Origin: Candidatus Thorarchaeota archaeon
Lineage (GTDB): Archaea; Asgardarchaeota; Thorarchaeia; Thorarchaeales; Thorarchaeaceae
Length of the DNA: 64,000 bases
Assembly: GCA_003345545.1 (NCBI GenBank)
Contig: PRDH01000015.1
Location: forward strand, 1-64,000
Direction: 5' to 3'
Below the pieces are notes generated by a model, which saw only the letters and a program-made list of their open reading frames with translations, did not search any database and had not been told where the DNA came from. The position numbers were made by a program, and so were the translations under genes. Every line of letters starts with the position of its first letter. Position 1 is the first letter of the stretch. Positions 44,609-51,049 of the stretch are shown in pieces.

Positions 44609-44962
44609 ATGTCTTCGGTCCCAACACCAGTCACACCAAAACCCCCAAGGACGAGAGAGAGGGTACTAGTCATTCTCCAAGAGCAGTGCAAAGAGTGTGG
44701 GCTTTGCATAGAGTTCTGCCCCAAGAAAGTCCTGTGTTTTACAGACATCTATAATCGAAAAGGGTACCATCCTGTCACTGCGTGCGATATTGATGCATGT
44801 GTGAACTGCGAGTTCTGTGAGCGAATTTGCCCGGATATGGCTATTTTTCTTGCCGGCCGTGAAGAGGCAAAGAAGGCGTACAAAGCAGGGGCGCTTGAAG
44901 AGGGAACTGTAATCCCGGAGTTCGAGGCAAAGCCAGCAGAGAGGAAGGAGAAGTCAAAGTAG
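44609..44962 (+). CDS. korD: 2-oxoglutarate:ferredoxin oxidoreductase delta (ferredoxin) subunit
   Basis: The 117-residue protein holds two 4Fe-4S motifs, CKECGLCIEFCP and CVNCEFCERICP, and a basic C-terminus, the layout of KorD/PorD subunits that carry electrons to ferredoxin. The ATG at 44609 is preceded by AACAGGAGAAAG. Its stop directly abuts the korA start at 44963. The korB and korC genes are about 3.5 kb downstream, past three unrelated genes. Confidence 0.9.
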   Translation: MSSVPTPVTPKPPRTRERVLVILQEQCKECGLCIEFCPKKVLCFTDIYNRKGYHPVTACDIDACVNCEFCERICPDMAIFLAGREEAKKAYKAGALEEGTVIPEFEAKPAERKEKSK

Positions 44963-46099
44963 ATGCCCGAGCGTATCATGTTCACAATGGGGGATATTGC
45001 ATGCGCTGAGGGTGCACTCTGTGCTGGTTGCAGATACTTTGGTGGATATCCAATCACACCTGCCACCGAGATTGCAGAATGGATGTCACAGAGAATGCCG
45101 CAAGTTGGTGGTGCCTATGTTCAGTATGAAGATGAGATAGCATCCATTACGAGCGTGATAGGTGCGTCATGGACTGGAGTGAAATCAATGACAGCTACCT
45201 CAGGTCCTGGTGTAAGCCTCATGCAAGAAGCAATTGGCCTGGCAGTGATGACTGAAACACCGCTTGTACTCGTGAACATCATGCGTGGAGGCCCAAGCAC
45301 AGGACAGCCCACAAGGGGTCAACAGGGCGATGTCATGCAGGCAAAATGGGGAAGCCACGGCGACTATCAAATAATCGCTCTCACTCCAGCATCAGTTCAG
45401 GAGATGTTCGACCAGACTATTCAGGCATTCAATCTGTCAGAGCGGTATCGAACGCCTGTCTATGTGCTGGCTGATGAAACCGTGGGCCATATGAGAGAGA
45501 AACTAATCATCCCTGATCAAAAAGACATATGGATTGAGAACCGCAAAACACCCACTGTGGAACCATCAGAGTATCTACCATTCAAAGCAGATGATGACCT
45601 CGTGCCGCCAATGGCTCTGTTGGGATCCAAATATCAGTTCTATGCCACCGGCTTGACTCATGATGAAAGAGGGTATCCAAGTGACAGCGAAGAAGTTCAG
45701 ATTGAACTCATAACTCGTCTCAGCAACAAGATACTCCGTAATGCGGATAAGATCATTGACGTCGACCGTGTAGAGCTGGATGATGCCAGAATCGCTGTGA
45801 TATCATATGGCACGCCAGCACGAAGTGCAAAGAGGGCCATCAAGATCGCTCGCGAGCAGGGTATCAAGGTCGGGATGCTAAGGCTCAAGACTGTGTGGCC
45901 ATTCCCTGAAAACGAGGTTGCACAGATTGCCACAGAGGTCGACCATATCATTGTCGCAGAACAGAACCTTGGACAGGTCTACTATATGGTGAAGGCTGCA
46001 GCTGCTTCGACACCAGTTCATCTAATGGCAAAGCCCGCAGGAATGCCGCAGCTTCCTAGCGAGATTCTTGACAAAATCAAAGAGATTGATGCGCAATAG
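44963..46099 (+). CDS. korA: 2-oxoglutarate:ferredoxin oxidoreductase alpha subunit
   Basis: KorA is the substrate/pyrimidine-domain subunit of the ferredoxin-dependent 2-oxoglutarate oxidoreductase that interconverts 2-oxoglutarate plus CoA and succinyl-CoA plus CO2. Seen: GCRYFGGYPITPATEI, TATSGPGVSLMQEAIG and RGGPSTGQPTRGQQGD, characteristic of the family. Length 378 is normal. Its start ATG follows the korD stop with no gap. It fits with the ATP-citrate lyase, aconitase and isocitrate dehydrogenase genes elsewhere in the window. Confidence 0.92.
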   Translation: MPERIMFTMGDIACAEGALCAGCRYFGGYPITPATEIAEWMSQRMPQVGGAYVQYEDEIASITSVIGASWTGVKSMTATSGPGVSLMQEAIGLAVMTETPLVLVNIMRGGPSTGQPTRGQQGDVMQAKWGSHGDYQIIALTPASVQEMFDQTIQAFNLSERYRTPVYVLADETVGHMREKLIIPDQKDIWIENRKTPTVEPSEYLPFKADDDLVPPMALLGSKYQFYATGLTHDERGYPSDSEEVQIELITRLSNKILRNADKIIDVDRVELDDARIAVISYGTPARSAKRAIKIAREQGIKVGMLRLKTVWPFPENEVAQIATEVDHIIVAEQNLGQVYYMVKAAAASTPVHLMAKPAGMPQLPSEILDKIKEIDAQ

Positions 46100-46173
46100 A
46101 GCCAACGGCTATTCTTGGTTCATGATGCTCTACACAGGGAAGAGTTAAGTCAAGAAGACGATGGAGTTTGATC

Positions 46174-47148
46174 ATGAGGGTCCTAGTGACTGGGTCATTT
46201 GGCAACCTCGGAGAGAGCACATTATTGGCACTCTTCGAGAAGGACTATGAAATAAGATGCTTCGATCTATGTACTAATGCAAGCCAAAAGACACAAGAAA
46301 GGTTGGAGAAGAGAGGCGTCTTTGACACAATATGGGGGGATATTCTTGACATAGAAACTGTGAAATCTAGTGTCGAAGATGTTGACTGCATCATCCACCT
46401 AGTGGGAATCATGCCCCCCTTGTCTGAGAGAAGACCAGATCTTGCAAGAGCCATAAACGTTGAGGGAACTCGAAACATCATCAATGCAGCAGAAACACAG
46501 GGCAGATTACCCAAGTTCATCTTTGCAGGATCGGTATCAACATTCGGACCCACGATGCACCTCCAGCCACCACGAGCTGCAAAGGATCCATTGGTAGCCA
46601 CTGATACATACACTGAAACAAAAATCGCCTGCGAAGGGATAGTACGAGCGTGCAGTCTTCCTTGGACAATCCTGCGAATCACAGCGGCACCACCAACTGT
46701 GGTTAGTGCAGACATGAGTGCACTGATGTTCGAGATGCCACTCGACCAACGGATCGAGTTCGTACACTCTCGGGATGTTGGCCTGGCCTGTGCAAATGCA
46801 GTGGAGGCAGAAACATCTGGAAAGACACTTCTAATAGGCGGTGGAAGGTCAAACCAGATGATTCAACGGGAATTTATCTCGAGAGTAATGAAGTTGATGG
46901 GTCTGGGATTGCCCCCTGAGTCCGCATTCAAAGTGCCAAAGAGGCCCGAGGAATACTATTACACTGATTGGCTCGATACCGAAGAGTCACAGCGACTTCT
47001 GAAATATCAGACTCGAGCATTTGACCAGTATCTCGAAGAGATGAAGTCCATGCTAGGTGTCAAGAGATATGTTACCAGACTATTCAAGGGACAAGCGATG
47101 AAGCAAATACTTGCGGCCTCACCATATTACACGAAGAGCGATGACTGA
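46174..47148 (+). CDS. NAD-dependent epimerase/dehydratase-family SDR protein
   Basis: The 324-residue protein is an extended SDR. Seen: Rossmann motif VTGSFGNLGESTLL, GTRNIINAAE, and the YTETK active site (YxxxK) preceded by a GSVSTFG serine. The ATG at 46174 has GGAG seven bases upstream. The substrate is unknown; sugar-nucleotide or steroid-like and hydroxyacyl substrates are all used by the family. It follows korA by 74 bases and is convergent with the small GTPase gene; no clear link to the kor enzyme is seen. Confidence 0.82.
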   Translation: MRVLVTGSFGNLGESTLLALFEKDYEIRCFDLCTNASQKTQERLEKRGVFDTIWGDILDIETVKSSVEDVDCIIHLVGIMPPLSERRPDLARAINVEGTRNIINAAETQGRLPKFIFAGSVSTFGPTMHLQPPRAAKDPLVATDTYTETKIACEGIVRACSLPWTILRITAAPPTVVSADMSALMFEMPLDQRIEFVHSRDVGLACANAVEAETSGKTLLIGGGRSNQMIQREFISRVMKLMGLGLPPESAFKVPKRPEEYYYTDWLDTEESQRLLKYQTRAFDQYLEEMKSMLGVKRYVTRLFKGQAMKQILAASPYYTKSDD

Positions 47149-47216
47149 TTCTCTTTGGAGAGAGAACGAGAGATATCACACGAAATCAAAGGCACGTTCA
47201 TTCTCATGGCAAAGGA

Positions 47217-47732
47217 CTAGAAAAGCGATTGGCAAATGCTCCGTGCAATCATCTCGAAGGCCTTGTTCACATTCTTATCATCTCTGACCGAGGTTTCGAT
47301 ATAGTCCATTCCTAGTTCGCGTGCCATTCTTTGGCCTTCCTCAATAGGGATGACTCTCTCCTCCACAAGGTCTGTCTTGTTCGCCACAAGTAATGACTTG
47401 TATTCCTCCACATTTCGGTCGACTTCTTTTTTCCATTCAATCACATCATGTAGAGTTTCCCATGCAGTGACATCATAGAGGAAAATGACTCCCTGCGTGC
47501 CAATGTAGTAGTTTGCCCGTACCCTCTCAAGAAAAGCCTGAGAGCCCAGATCCCAAATCTGGAGATTCACAAGATTGTTGTCAACCTGCATCTTCTTGTA
47601 GGCAAAACCAGTTCCTAGGGTTGGAGAATAGTGTTCCCTGAAGACCCCTGTGGAGTATCGGATGATGATACTCGTCTTGCCTACTGATGCGGATCCAACG
47701 GTGACTACCTTGAGAAGATAAGTTGGACTCAT
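47217..47732 (-). CDS. Ras/Rab-superfamily small GTPase with altered G3 motif
   Basis: The 171-residue protein is a eukaryote-like small GTPase. Seen: G1 GSASVGKTS (residues 13-21), switch I threonine T38 in SPTLGTG, G3 WDLGSQ (residues 60-65), G4 ANKTD (117-121) and G5 ETS (146-148). At G3 the second glycine of the Arf-like DxGGQ (Gly60 in Ras) is Ser64, while the glutamine is kept. There is no C-terminal cysteine for prenylation. The ATG at 47732 has GGGATG seven bases upstream. It follows a longin-like protein gene on the same strand by 104 bases. Target and membrane are unknown. Confidence 0.88.
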   Translation of the reverse strand: MSPTYLLKVVTVGSASVGKTSIIIRYSTGVFREHYSPTLGTGFAYKKMQVDNNLVNLQIWDLGSQAFLERVRANYYIGTQGVIFLYDVTAWETLHDVIEWKKEVDRNVEEYKSLLVANKTDLVEERVIPIEEGQRMARELGMDYIETSVRDDKNVNKAFEMIARSICQSLF

Positions 47733-47836
47733 ACTTAATCATCCCACGAATCTCAGGGACCTATTGTCGTGTAAATCAGATAACGGTTACCATGACATAT
47801 GAACTCGTCGAATGAACATACAGAGCAGCTGTAATC

Positions 47837-49438
47837 CTAGTACGTGATGGTTGTAGGGATAGATGTGATGGTCTTAGGAATAGTGATACCGAGTTGTAAT
47901 GACAGTATCAGCAGAGTCAACTTCGCGGCCGCTCCCAGTTTGGAGTACTCCAACATCAAACGCTTCAGGCTCTCATTCTTTTGCCACTTCACCCAATAAT
48001 CAGGAGGTATATCCATCAGCGGCACTCCGGATGCCGCACAGATTCTACTGATACGCTCTGTCCCATAGATGGCCTGACCCCTTGTGACAAGGGTGAAGAT
48101 CATCTCTTCTGTAGCATCATCACCTGCCGGTGTTAACGACCCGGTCTTGATTGTTCTAATCTGAGACCGACCATGGCTGCTCAGTTGCTCTAACCAGAGG
48201 GAGTACTCCTCAAATCCTCGCATATCAAATGGAGCAAACCGACTGACTATGCGTTCTCTGAAGGCATTAGTAAGGGCAATAGCAAAGGATTCAAGGTTCC
48301 TAGGGTCAAGAGCCGCCGCAAACTGTGCCAGGATTTTCATCCATTCACCAAAGAGGAGCATGAGCCTTCGGTTGTTGAGGCCTTCGAGGATTTTGATGTC
48401 GAAATCAACAGACCAATGGTTGTCTGCAAAACGAAGTTGCCCCAGGGTTTCGGGGGTCTCACTCGCATTCATAACAGAGGTCAGAGCTTTAGTGGCATCT
48501 CCTACCGGGTAGCATTCCTCAGCCACACGTAGCGATATCTCAAGAACCTCCTTTGCCAGGAGAATACGTCTCTTCTCGGGAGAGAGAGCCTCAATCACCC
48601 CAGTTTCAAGAAGATAGTCCAGCGCCCTAAGTATCTCTCGCTCATCGTATGAGGCGCCGAGCTCACCAAGTATCTCTCTGACAGTTCGTCGGCCGTCCAT
48701 CAGACCTGCAATACGGGGGATTACAACAAGCATCTCTGGATGTAGGTTGCGCAATGCTTCGGTTTCTCGAGATGTCGCCTGCACATACCGAAAGAACTCA
48801 GTCCGAGCCGAAACGAAATCATTGAAGCTCAGTGTGTTACGAAAGCGAATGACGCGATATGCCCATAACTTGGATATCTCAAGGAATAGGTCTCTCTTTG
48901 ATAGTCCACTCACTTCCAGTATCTCCTTCATGTTTCGGGATCCGTTGATTAGCGGCACGAGAGTACCACTGGACGTGACAATTGTGTTCGGGTCAACTGT
49001 GAAGTATGGTACCCATGAATCGGGAAGGTCATCAAAGGAGAGCTTCATCATCACGCTTTCGCCAAAGGGCTCCAAGTAGGCCTCTGCAAAGGACACATCA
49101 TTATCATAGAGTTGCGTTTTTGGAAGCCATTTCTGTTCAAATTCAGTCAGCAGCGAATTGAGTACACGAATGACCTCTGTGTTAAGACTCTGCACGCCAA
49201 CAGCTACCATGTGCACATTCTCGCCATTCAATACTGTAAAAACGTGAGCCCCATAATCTACGTGGAAGACAGGTGCACTCTGCTGAAACACTTCTTTTGA
49301 GAACATGTCGATGGCAGTGAAGAAGCTTGATGCGAGAATAGGATTCATACCAAAGGCACGAGGATCAAGTTGCATGTAGAAACGAGGATTGCTGTTCTTG
49401 TCTGTTATTAGGATGGCTTCAATCACGTGTCCAGGCAT
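47837..49438 (-). CDS. Longin/roadblock-like protein with two winged-helix repeats
   Basis: The 533-residue protein starts with a roughly 105-residue alpha/beta domain (EAILITDKNSNPRFYMQL, HVFTVLNGENVHMVAVG, then a long helix) like longin or roadblock domains. Two similar segments follow: NGSRNMKEILEVSGLSKRDLFLEISKLW (about residues 165-192) and DGRRTVREILGELGASYDEREILRALDYL (about 248-276), each with the helix-turn-helix/wing pattern seen in DUF4388-type proteins. The remaining 240 residues are helical and unrecognised. It lies upstream of the small GTPase on the same strand and may be its regulator or scaffold. Confidence 0.65.
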   Translation of the reverse strand: MPGHVIEAILITDKNSNPRFYMQLDPRAFGMNPILASSFFTAIDMFSKEVFQQSAPVFHVDYGAHVFTVLNGENVHMVAVGVQSLNTEVIRVLNSLLTEFEQKWLPKTQLYDNDVSFAEAYLEPFGESVMMKLSFDDLPDSWVPYFTVDPNTIVTSSGTLVPLINGSRNMKEILEVSGLSKRDLFLEISKLWAYRVIRFRNTLSFNDFVSARTEFFRYVQATSRETEALRNLHPEMLVVIPRIAGLMDGRRTVREILGELGASYDEREILRALDYLLETGVIEALSPEKRRILLAKEVLEISLRVAEECYPVGDATKALTSVMNASETPETLGQLRFADNHWSVDFDIKILEGLNNRRLMLLFGEWMKILAQFAAALDPRNLESFAIALTNAFRERIVSRFAPFDMRGFEEYSLWLEQLSSHGRSQIRTIKTGSLTPAGDDATEEMIFTLVTRGQAIYGTERISRICAASGVPLMDIPPDYWVKWQKNESLKRLMLEYSKLGAAAKLTLLILSLQLGITIPKTITSIPTTITY

Positions 49439-49626
49439 CTTGACGCACTATCTTTGATGATGGTAGGTTTTGATGAATATTAGCCTTCTTTGGAGAGACA
49501 ATAGGTAGGTATCTCACGACTTCATTGAGAGCGGTCAGTGCATTTTATCATGACTGACTATTCGAATATGACTCGACTCGTCGACCACATCAACAAGCCT
49601 TTTATCATATTGACAGTCGAAACTTG

Positions 49627-50487
49627 ATGAGAGTACCCTCCATGACTGAAGCAGTGCGTGTCTTGAAGCATCCGATGGCCAAGTACATTCGAACTGATAG
49701 AACTCCATTCATCTATTGCCCGGGCTGCTCTGTCGGGATTGTATCAGGCATGCTCGCAAGAGCAATTGATAATCTTGGCATCGATTTTACCAAGGTCGTA
49801 GTGGTTTCAGGCGTTGGATGTACAGGAAGAACCTCAGGGTACTTCAAGACGGGGACATACCATACAACTCATGGAAGGGCAATAGCTTTCGCAGAAGGCG
49901 TGAAAATAGCTAATCCTGAACTCAGCGTCATTGTTGTCAGTGGGGATGGGGATGTTGCAGCTATTGGCGGTAATCATCTCATTCATGCGTGTCGTAGGAA
50001 TATTGACATAACTGTCATCTGCATCAACAACTTCAATTACGGCATGACAGGAGGGCAGTTTGGCCCAACAACTGAGCACGAACGATTCTCTCAGACGAGC
50101 CCAGCTCCGATTGGCAACATAGAGCATCCATTCAACTTAGTGAAGCTAGCAGCATCATCTGGTGCGACCTTTGTGGCGAGATGGACAGCAATCCAAGTTC
50201 GAAGAGCAACAAAGTCAATGGAGAAGGCAATCAAGAGGAAGGGTTTTTCATTCGTCGAAATAATCGGAGCCTGCCCCACAGCCTATGGTAGAATGAACCG
50301 ATTGGGTGACGGTCTGGCCATGCATAAGCATCTACTGGAGGTCGCCGAGATTCAGAATGGTCTGCCACCTCATGAGGCAGAGCTTGACTATGCTCGTAGA
50401 ATTGTATGTGGTGAGTTTGTGGACATTGAAAAGCCGGAGTACACCGCTGTTCTAGAAGAAGCGCATCGTCGAGCCAAGGGTGAATGA
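49627..50487 (+). CDS. korB: 2-oxoglutarate:ferredoxin oxidoreductase beta subunit
   Basis: KorB binds thiamine pyrophosphate. Seen: CPGCSVGIVSGML, the TPP/metal motif GDGDVAAIGGNHLIHACRRN and NNFNYGMTGGQFGPTT. Length 286 is normal. Start at 49627 or a second ATG at 49642 cannot be settled; a TTTATCATATT element lies about 25 bases upstream, compatible with a leaderless or short-leader transcript. It overlaps korC and lies on the plus strand, separated from korDA by the epimerase and, on the minus strand, the GTPase and longin genes. Confidence 0.92.
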   Translation: MRVPSMTEAVRVLKHPMAKYIRTDRTPFIYCPGCSVGIVSGMLARAIDNLGIDFTKVVVVSGVGCTGRTSGYFKTGTYHTTHGRAIAFAEGVKIANPELSVIVVSGDGDVAAIGGNHLIHACRRNIDITVICINNFNYGMTGGQFGPTTEHERFSQTSPAPIGNIEHPFNLVKLAASSGATFVARWTAIQVRRATKSMEKAIKRKGFSFVEIIGACPTAYGRMNRLGDGLAMHKHLLEVAEIQNGLPPHEAELDYARRIVCGEFVDIEKPEYTAVLEEAHRRAKGE

Positions 50488-50488
50488 T

Positions 50489-51049
50489 TTGAGCAGATAC
50501 GAGATACGAATCGCAGGCTTTGGTGGTCAAGGTGTGGTCACAATGGCTGTGGTGGTCGGAGAAACCGCTGCACTGAATGACAATAAGTACGTCGTGCAGA
50601 CCCAGTCATATGGACCGGAAGCCCGTGGCGGTGCGAGCAAGAGCGAGATAGTCATCTCTGATGAAGAAATTGACTACCCAAAGGTCATGGCACCTGATGT
50701 GTTTGTGGCGTTGAGTAGAGCTGCCTACCTAGAATACATCCACGGTCTAAAAGAGGATGGAGTTCTTATCATAGATGAAGACATGGTGGGCGTGGAGGGC
50801 AAGCTTCCCAAAGGAGTGAAGGTCTACAAGATACCTGCAACAAAGATTGCAGACAAGGAAGTAGGTAACAAACAAGCGACAAATATGGTGATGCTAGGAG
50901 CCTTTACCGTCATCACGAGAGCATTGTCAATTGGGGGGCTGAGGGCCAGAATCGAAGAGAAGTGGCCGAAATTCCTCAAGACGAACATGCTCGCATTGGA
51001 ACTGGGCATAAGAGCGGGCGAAGAGGCCTTGGCCAAGAACGATGACTGA
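50489..51049 (+). CDS. korC: 2-oxoglutarate:ferredoxin oxidoreductase gamma subunit
   Basis: KorC is the CoA-binding gamma subunit. Seen: IAGFGGQGVVTMAVVVGE, SYGPEARGGASKSEIVIS and NMVMLGAFTVITRALS, all family-typical. Start is a TTG at 50489, five bases after GGTGA, just past the korB stop; a GTG at 50480 is also possible. With korA, korB and korD it makes a complete four-subunit enzyme. Confidence 0.92.
   Translation: MSRYEIRIAGFGGQGVVTMAVVVGETAALNDNKYVVQTQSYGPEARGGASKSEIVISDEEIDYPKVMAPDVFVALSRAAYLEYIHGLKEDGVLIIDEDMVGVEGKLPKGVKVYKIPATKIADKEVGNKQATNMVMLGAFTVITRALSIGGLRARIEEKWPKFLKTNMLALELGIRAGEEALAKNDD

Follow-up and report, generated by a model that had tools for sequence, protein, structure and literature searches.

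The NPRL2/NPRL3 proteins (Npr2/Npr3; GATOR1/SEACIT) act on Rag (Gtr) GTPases, and in bacteria, the polarity GTPase MglA is paired with MglB, a GAP of the roadblock class. In NPRL2 and NPRL3, a longin domain is followed by tandem winged helices (wH), a domain fusion that has been placed in the early eukaryotic lineage (PMC3521125), and longin domains are the GTPase platforms of GATOR1 and Mon1-Ccz1 (PMC8534245). For Asgard archaea, Rab and roadblock structures have been published together with a predicted longin (PMC10933270), and the eukaryotic-signature proteins catalogued for these organisms already include a class named "NPRL2-like longin domain" (PMC9834061). Asgard genomes encode dozens of small GTPases, the regulators of which are mostly unknown. 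Thorarchaeota are relatives of the ancestors of eukaryotes, and here, we analyze, in a genome of this lineage, a compact GTPase-partner pair for which there is strong genomic evidence that the two genes belong together. The pair is located in the first 64,000 nucleotides of contig PRDH01000015.1 (GenBank assembly GCA_003345545.1), a stretch to which we refer as the window.

The gene pair and its surroundings

The two open reading frames were recovered with exactly the coordinates, common direction and 104-bp intergenic gap given in a first-pass annotation of the window, with the GTPase gene lying downstream of the gene for a 533-aa longin/winged-helix protein. Gene starts, here and in the compared genomes, which are mostly draft MAGs, were set from the open reading frames and alignment only. 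In the following list of features, N and C denote the two units that are fused in the 533-aa protein.

47217..47732, minus strand: small Rab-like GTPase of 171 aa, a member of the paired DxGSQ group (open reading frame; Pfam Ras, E = 1.5e-43; N-C linkage in 43/45 loci)
47673..47696, minus strand: P-loop GSASVGKT (G1), residues 13-20 of the GTPase (sequence; alignment)
47538..47552, minus strand: G3 motif DLGSQ, residues 61-65 of the GTPase, with Ser for the DxxG glycine and Gln retained (alignment)
47837..49438, minus strand: longin/winged-helix protein, 533 aa, a fusion of the N and C units (open reading frame; homologs; N and C separate in paralogous loci)
49025..49438, minus strand: predicted longin domain, residues 1-138 (hhalign to Asgard Fuz_longin_1-type domains, E = 3e-18 and 4.5e-15)
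48743..49024, minus strand: linker and winged helix 1 (wH1), residues 139-232, NPRL2-like (PDB profile search; homology to wH2)
48524..48742, minus strand: winged helix 2 (wH2), residues 233-305 (hhalign of wH1 with wH2, E = 1e-9; weak PqqD matches in the family)
48149..48523, minus strand: mostly helical region, residues 306-430, the end of the N unit (conserved in the alignment; low-confidence AF2 secondary structure)
47864..48118, minus strand: C domain, residues 441-525, all-helical (alignment; without a family in Pfam or PDB; encoded on its own in paralogous and ODP-linked loci)

At positions 44609-51049 of the window, the genes for a 2-oxoacid:ferredoxin oxidoreductase (ferredoxin, alpha, then beta, gamma) are split between alpha and beta by the pair, which is antisense to them. 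Eight loci, including that of the window, form a cluster with these surroundings. No relatives of the pair were found in the viral contigs scanned.

Domain architecture of the 533-aa protein

A direct Pfam scan of the 533-aa protein scored no family, and we therefore built family profiles. In profile-profile comparison (hhalign), residues 1-138 aligned over ~120 columns, with a probability of 98-99, to Asgard domains retrieved with Pfam Fuz_longin_1, at E = 3e-18 for the wide version of this reference set and 4.5e-15 for the strict one, and control profiles of the GTPase, ODP and the C domain gave nothing against the same residues. Given the strong alignment with Fuz_longin_1-type domains and the silence of the controls, the N-terminal domain is identified by profile comparison as a longin, not a roadblock, domain. 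Thus, of the longin/roadblock-like N-terminus originally proposed, the longin half stands; a roadblock/MglB identity was rejected, with Asgard roadblocks reaching only E = 0.01-0.02 and a probability of 2-4 (hhalign). The AF2 models were of low confidence, with a pLDDT of 53 for the full protein (9-row alignment) and a mean pLDDT of 48 for residues 1-135, and Foldseek produced no significant match with either model; the low-confidence secondary structure of residues 1-135 fits the order b-b-a-b-b-b-a-a, without an N-terminal helix.

The two winged-helix segments, previously noticed as repeats, are mutually homologous (hhalign probability 96, E = 1e-9). Weak Pfam matches were obtained among 17 members of the family, to HTH_NPRL3 (6/17), PqqD (5/17), TrmB (3/17) and NPR2 (1/17); DUF4388, to which the repeats had been likened, is absent both from the 25 Pfam families listed for these members and from the results for the window protein itself.

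Downstream of the mostly helical region, the protein ends with the C domain, which, along with the G3 serine of the GTPase (see below), was overlooked in the first-pass annotation. This domain (~85-115 aa) belongs to no known family in Pfam or PDB and is previously undescribed; the C family is present in 45 of the 228 Asgard genomes. Weak matches of the C domain to TAF (0.009) and PFK-gamma (0.011) were dismissed.

Resemblance to NPRL2 and other longin proteins

When the family profile was compared with all PDB sequences, human NPRL2 was the top match (E = 1.3e-5, and 3e-6 once the alignment had been widened), followed by yeast Npr2 (0.0067, then 7.4e-5), both matches being essentially confined to wH1, whereas the next matches were noise (0.88, then 0.024 with the wider alignment). 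As a control, another Asgard longin-wH-wH family found only MarR (0.015) in the PDB, and no NPRL2. Because NPRL2 and Npr2 lead, the later matches are noise, and the control family does not retrieve NPRL2, the resemblance of wH1 to NPRL2 is, at the level of sequence profiles, specific, and the predicted domain layout is equal. In the reverse direction, Pfam NPR2 scored nothing over the cut-off in the 228 Asgard genomes, and the best matches of HTH_NPRL3 in Asgard genomes were other proteins, so that the family of the window was not singled out. Taken as a whole, the sequence comparison is suggestive of membership of the 533-aa protein in the NPRL2 family, or of common descent. Although the winged helices were described earlier as unusual in trafficking factors, they are not out of place in a GTPase regulator: longin plus tandem winged helices is the NPRL2/NPRL3 layout (PMC3521125), and NPRL2 is the best PDB match of wH1.

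The window protein shares with NPRL2/NPRL3 the longin domain, the tandem winged helices and the association with a small GTPase but carries, in addition, the helical region and the C domain; moreover, the GTPase linked to it, judged by gene linkage, is not a Rag but a single-domain, Rab-like protein. Furthermore, an arginine finger like that of NPRL2 is not apparent in the window copy. At position 65, a loop residue of the longin domain that might be the counterpart of NPRL2 Arg78, 35 of the 40 GTPase-linked copies have Arg but the window copy has His, so that an Arg-finger GAP mechanism is unsupported for this copy.

The Fuz_longin_1-type longin, a possible GTPase platform, is also common to the window protein and the MON1/FUZ/HPS1-type proteins (Mon1-Ccz1 GEF). 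The latter contain several longin domains each and, to our knowledge, no tandem winged helices of the kind found in the window protein. In MglA/MglB, as here, a small GTPase is accompanied by a protein with a fold of the roadblock/longin class, but this comparison is by analogy only because the partner in the window is a longin, not a roadblock, protein; the GTPase differs as well, being Rab-like, with Ser in G3.

A Rab-like GTPase with a modified G3 motif

The Rab/Arf-like GTPase of the first-pass annotation is indeed a Ras-superfamily G domain (Pfam Ras, E = 1.5e-43; Arf, 6.9e-14), with the characteristic P-loop, GSASVGKT, and NKTD; the Gtr1_RagA score (E = 5e-4) is below the cut-off. Its best PDB matches are Rabs, including a Thorarchaeota Rab. 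This protein, Thor-Rab (PDB 7EZB; 4e-32), belongs to the same superfamily and, like the window GTPase, has no C-terminal cysteines (PMC10933270). The window GTPase ends in ARSICQSLF, without CC, CxC or CAAX prenylation cysteines.

In G3, the window GTPase departs from the DxxGQ of Rabs and reads DLGSQ. All 21 aligned paired GTPases read WD[L/M]GSQ, with D61, G63, S64 and Q65 invariant, so that the near-universal DxxG glycine (Ras Gly60) is replaced by Ser and the catalytic Gln is retained. By contrast, Gly occupies this site in every G3 motif recognised among the other Ras-type GTPases of the host genome, in the other Asgard Rab-like GTPases examined, and in the closest unpaired relatives, which have DLAGQ or DMGGQ. 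The GSQ group falls on one side of a branch of the GTPase tree with support of 91/92, and GTPases that match the one in the window at E <= 1e-40 are found in 37 of the 228 Asgard genomes, nearly all of which belong to the family of the window genome. In Ras, substitutions of Gly60 compromise switching. Since Ser occupies the position of the DxxG glycine of switch II, the window GTPase probably switches or hydrolyses GTP unlike ordinary Ras-family proteins and relies on the partner.

The closest unpaired GTPases, with the canonical DLAGQ, are encoded ~80 bp from a co-directional gene for a 477-aa protein (L149:4974-7022, L153:1011-3059). In L149, this neighbour is a PAS-PAS-HATPase protein of the histidine-kinase type, which suggests another GTPase-sensor pairing.

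Conservation of the linkage in fused and split forms

Adjacency in other Asgard genomes was set beforehand as a test of the pairing, and the pair is kept in 43 of 45 homologous loci. This sample consists of the N-C loci without ODP and with >700 bp of downstream sequence; the GSQ GTPase is downstream on the same strand, within 250 bp in 38 cases, and the usual distance is 50-105 bp. Linkage was found in 23/24 fused and 20/21 split loci, counts that show persistence, not probability, because related loci are not independent events. Clustering by flanking genes yielded ten contexts, nine of which contain the pair. With 43 of 45 loci keeping the pair in nine gene contexts, its adjacency is not due to chance. 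The exceptions are L030, a second N-C copy in one genome, without the GTPase, and L061, which is at a contig end; in its close relatives, an inserted gene precedes the GTPase, which lies ~1.4 kb downstream.

The GTPase-linked loci divide about equally into two forms. In one, N (~420 aa) and C (~95-120 aa) are encoded by two neighbouring genes, with the GTPase gene next; in the other, they are fused, as in the window. The host genome has both forms, the fused one in the window and the split one at G000:C30, where the contig stops 1.2 kb past C. The fused forms comprise one group in the N tree (support 100/100), and the GTPase tree contains a matching fused/split division.

Two variants of the locus deserve mention. 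At L148:4830-5516, the GSQ GTPase is kept, only ~40 codons of N remain and C is absent, a natural case of partner loss. In one clade (L049:3535-4902, L057:6705-7967), the C gene and the GTPase are separated by a co-directional gene for a secreted-looking hydrolase that, by eye, resembles a beta-lactamase.

An ODP-linked form of the N and C genes

In several Thorarchaeota genera and in the Asgard families f18, f19, f21, f22 and f27, N and/or C genes are accompanied by a gene for an ODP di-iron protein (Pfam ODP, 1.5e-53), with no adjacent GTPase. ODP is an oxygen sensor, acting in chemotaxis, in Treponema denticola (PMC7666581). In these loci, N and C are partnered with an ODP protein; beside the window pair, there is no ODP gene, and a GTPase is present in its place. 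Given that N and C occur in ODP loci without an adjacent GTPase, GTPase control cannot be their sole role. Close relatives of the GTPase-linked protein are thus encoded beside a likely oxygen sensor rather than a GTPase, which gives the pair the appearance of a signalling module in which the partner was exchanged.

The two forms are distinct in sequence. In the unrooted N tree, the ODP-linked and the GTPase-linked N proteins fall on opposite sides of a branch with support of 96/100, and of the five residues that mark the two groups, three (F20, M22, F40) are in the longin domain. The C proteins of ODP loci have strongly basic tails, a feature absent from the fused form. The ODP form is the more widely distributed of the two, which suggests, on an unrooted tree, that it is also the older.

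The ODP loci include a conserved Asgard operon that consists of genes for the longin/winged-helix protein, ODP and the small C protein, without an adjacent GTPase (L066-L070, L081, L120-L123, L126, L131, L159-L162); N is absent or off-contig in some of these operons, and the di-iron ligand positions of the ODP proteins (H-x-D-x-D, H, D, H) are intact by eye. This ODP-N-C operon is apparently undescribed. In the open literature searched, which mostly excludes subscription papers, we found no paper that treats the gene pair, the GTPases with GSQ or the form linked to ODP.

Function and origin of the pair

We infer, with a probability of roughly 0.6, that the two genes form a signalling module in which the longin/winged-helix protein physically binds the GTPase and controls its cycle, and that this module was derived by a partner swap with a redox sensor. 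Under this scenario, the 533-aa protein (longin - wH - wH - helical region - C domain) would be the dedicated partner of the neighbouring GTPase, with the longin domain most likely binding the switch surface and setting the nucleotide state, and with the winged helices and the C domain serving as protein-protein surfaces, as in NPRL2/NPRL3. The clustering of F20, M22 and F40 in the longin domain fits a partner interface there. The N-C genes would have been duplicated, the GTPase would have replaced the ODP di-iron sensor, and N and C would have been fused later, in the clade of the window. Between the roles of GAP, GEF and effector, the sequence data available here favor no single one. Of the "signalling or trafficking module" first proposed, the signalling part is favored by the ODP partnership and by the PAS/histidine-kinase-type genes beside close unpaired GTPases, and the trafficking part is unsupported. 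A longin protein and a small GTPase are indeed conserved as a pair in related Asgard genomes, and the proposal of a candidate archaeal GTPase regulator, undescribed in the literature searched, remains plausible.

If the longin/winged-helix protein were an effector that reads the GTP-bound GTPase and relays the signal via the winged helices and the C domain, the linkage and interface evidence would look the same. The window copy has no conserved catalytic residue, and the service of N and C to an ODP input elsewhere is what one would expect of an output unit common to two inputs. However, longins found at small GTPases have mostly been described within GEFs or GAPs (PMC8534245, PMC9481161), and we consider an effector role credible but rather unlikely. 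A DNA-binding regulator, with the tandem winged helices in contact with DNA and transcription under the control of the GTPase or ODP, would account for the two winged helices, the weak TrmB matches in 3/17 family members and the strongly basic tails of the C proteins in ODP loci. Yet, the net charges of the window copy are low (+2 and -3 for the winged helices, +2 for the C region), the fused form has no basic tail, and it is NPRL2, not a transcription factor, that wH1 matches best in the PDB, which makes this alternative doubtful.

A membrane-trafficking or tethering module appears highly improbable: it would agree with the combination of a longin domain and a Rab-like GTPase, but the GTPase lacks C-terminal prenylation cysteines, N and C partner ODP elsewhere, and close unpaired GTPases are found beside PAS/kinase-type genes. 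Finally, an orphan N-C locus (L030) and a GTPase with only an N relic (L148) do exist, as would be expected if the two genes were chance neighbours with no common function; considering the 43/45 loci, the nine gene contexts, the matching trees and the group-specific motif, the probability of such coincidence is negligible.

Returning to the signalling module derived by a partner swap, we tentatively propose a more specific course of events, whereby the pair would be an archaeal forerunner of the GATOR1 layout, with the longin plus tandem winged-helix protein serving small GTPases as a partner already in Asgard archaea, and an ODP-N-C redox module would have swapped its oxygen sensor for a GTPase with a switch II (DxGSQ) rebuilt to fit this partner. 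Should the longin/winged-helix protein prove to be a relative of NPRL2, the fusion of domains that underlies a central nutrient-signalling GAP of eukaryotes would predate eukaryotes. The alternation of ODP and GTPase is a concrete case of redox-sensor and GTPase modules with common core proteins.

Other longin proteins in Asgard archaea

Several Thorarchaeota conserve, near a roadblock gene, tandem paralogous genes for longin-wH-wH proteins of ~300 and ~275 aa that are 38% identical (L075:4006-5735, in the host genome at G000:C24; L076:4887-6713; L191-L195). These paralogues resemble an NPRL2/NPRL3-like pair in layout, and the area gives HTH_NPRL3 matches; their profile, the control mentioned above, has no NPRL2 match in the PDB. 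The longin-type domain also recurs in large Asgard proteins, including beta-propeller/TSP3 proteins, a 2116-aa protein and a TPR protein, at residues 1711-1812 in L135, 738-845 in L136, 689-821 in L137 and 570-679 in L138.
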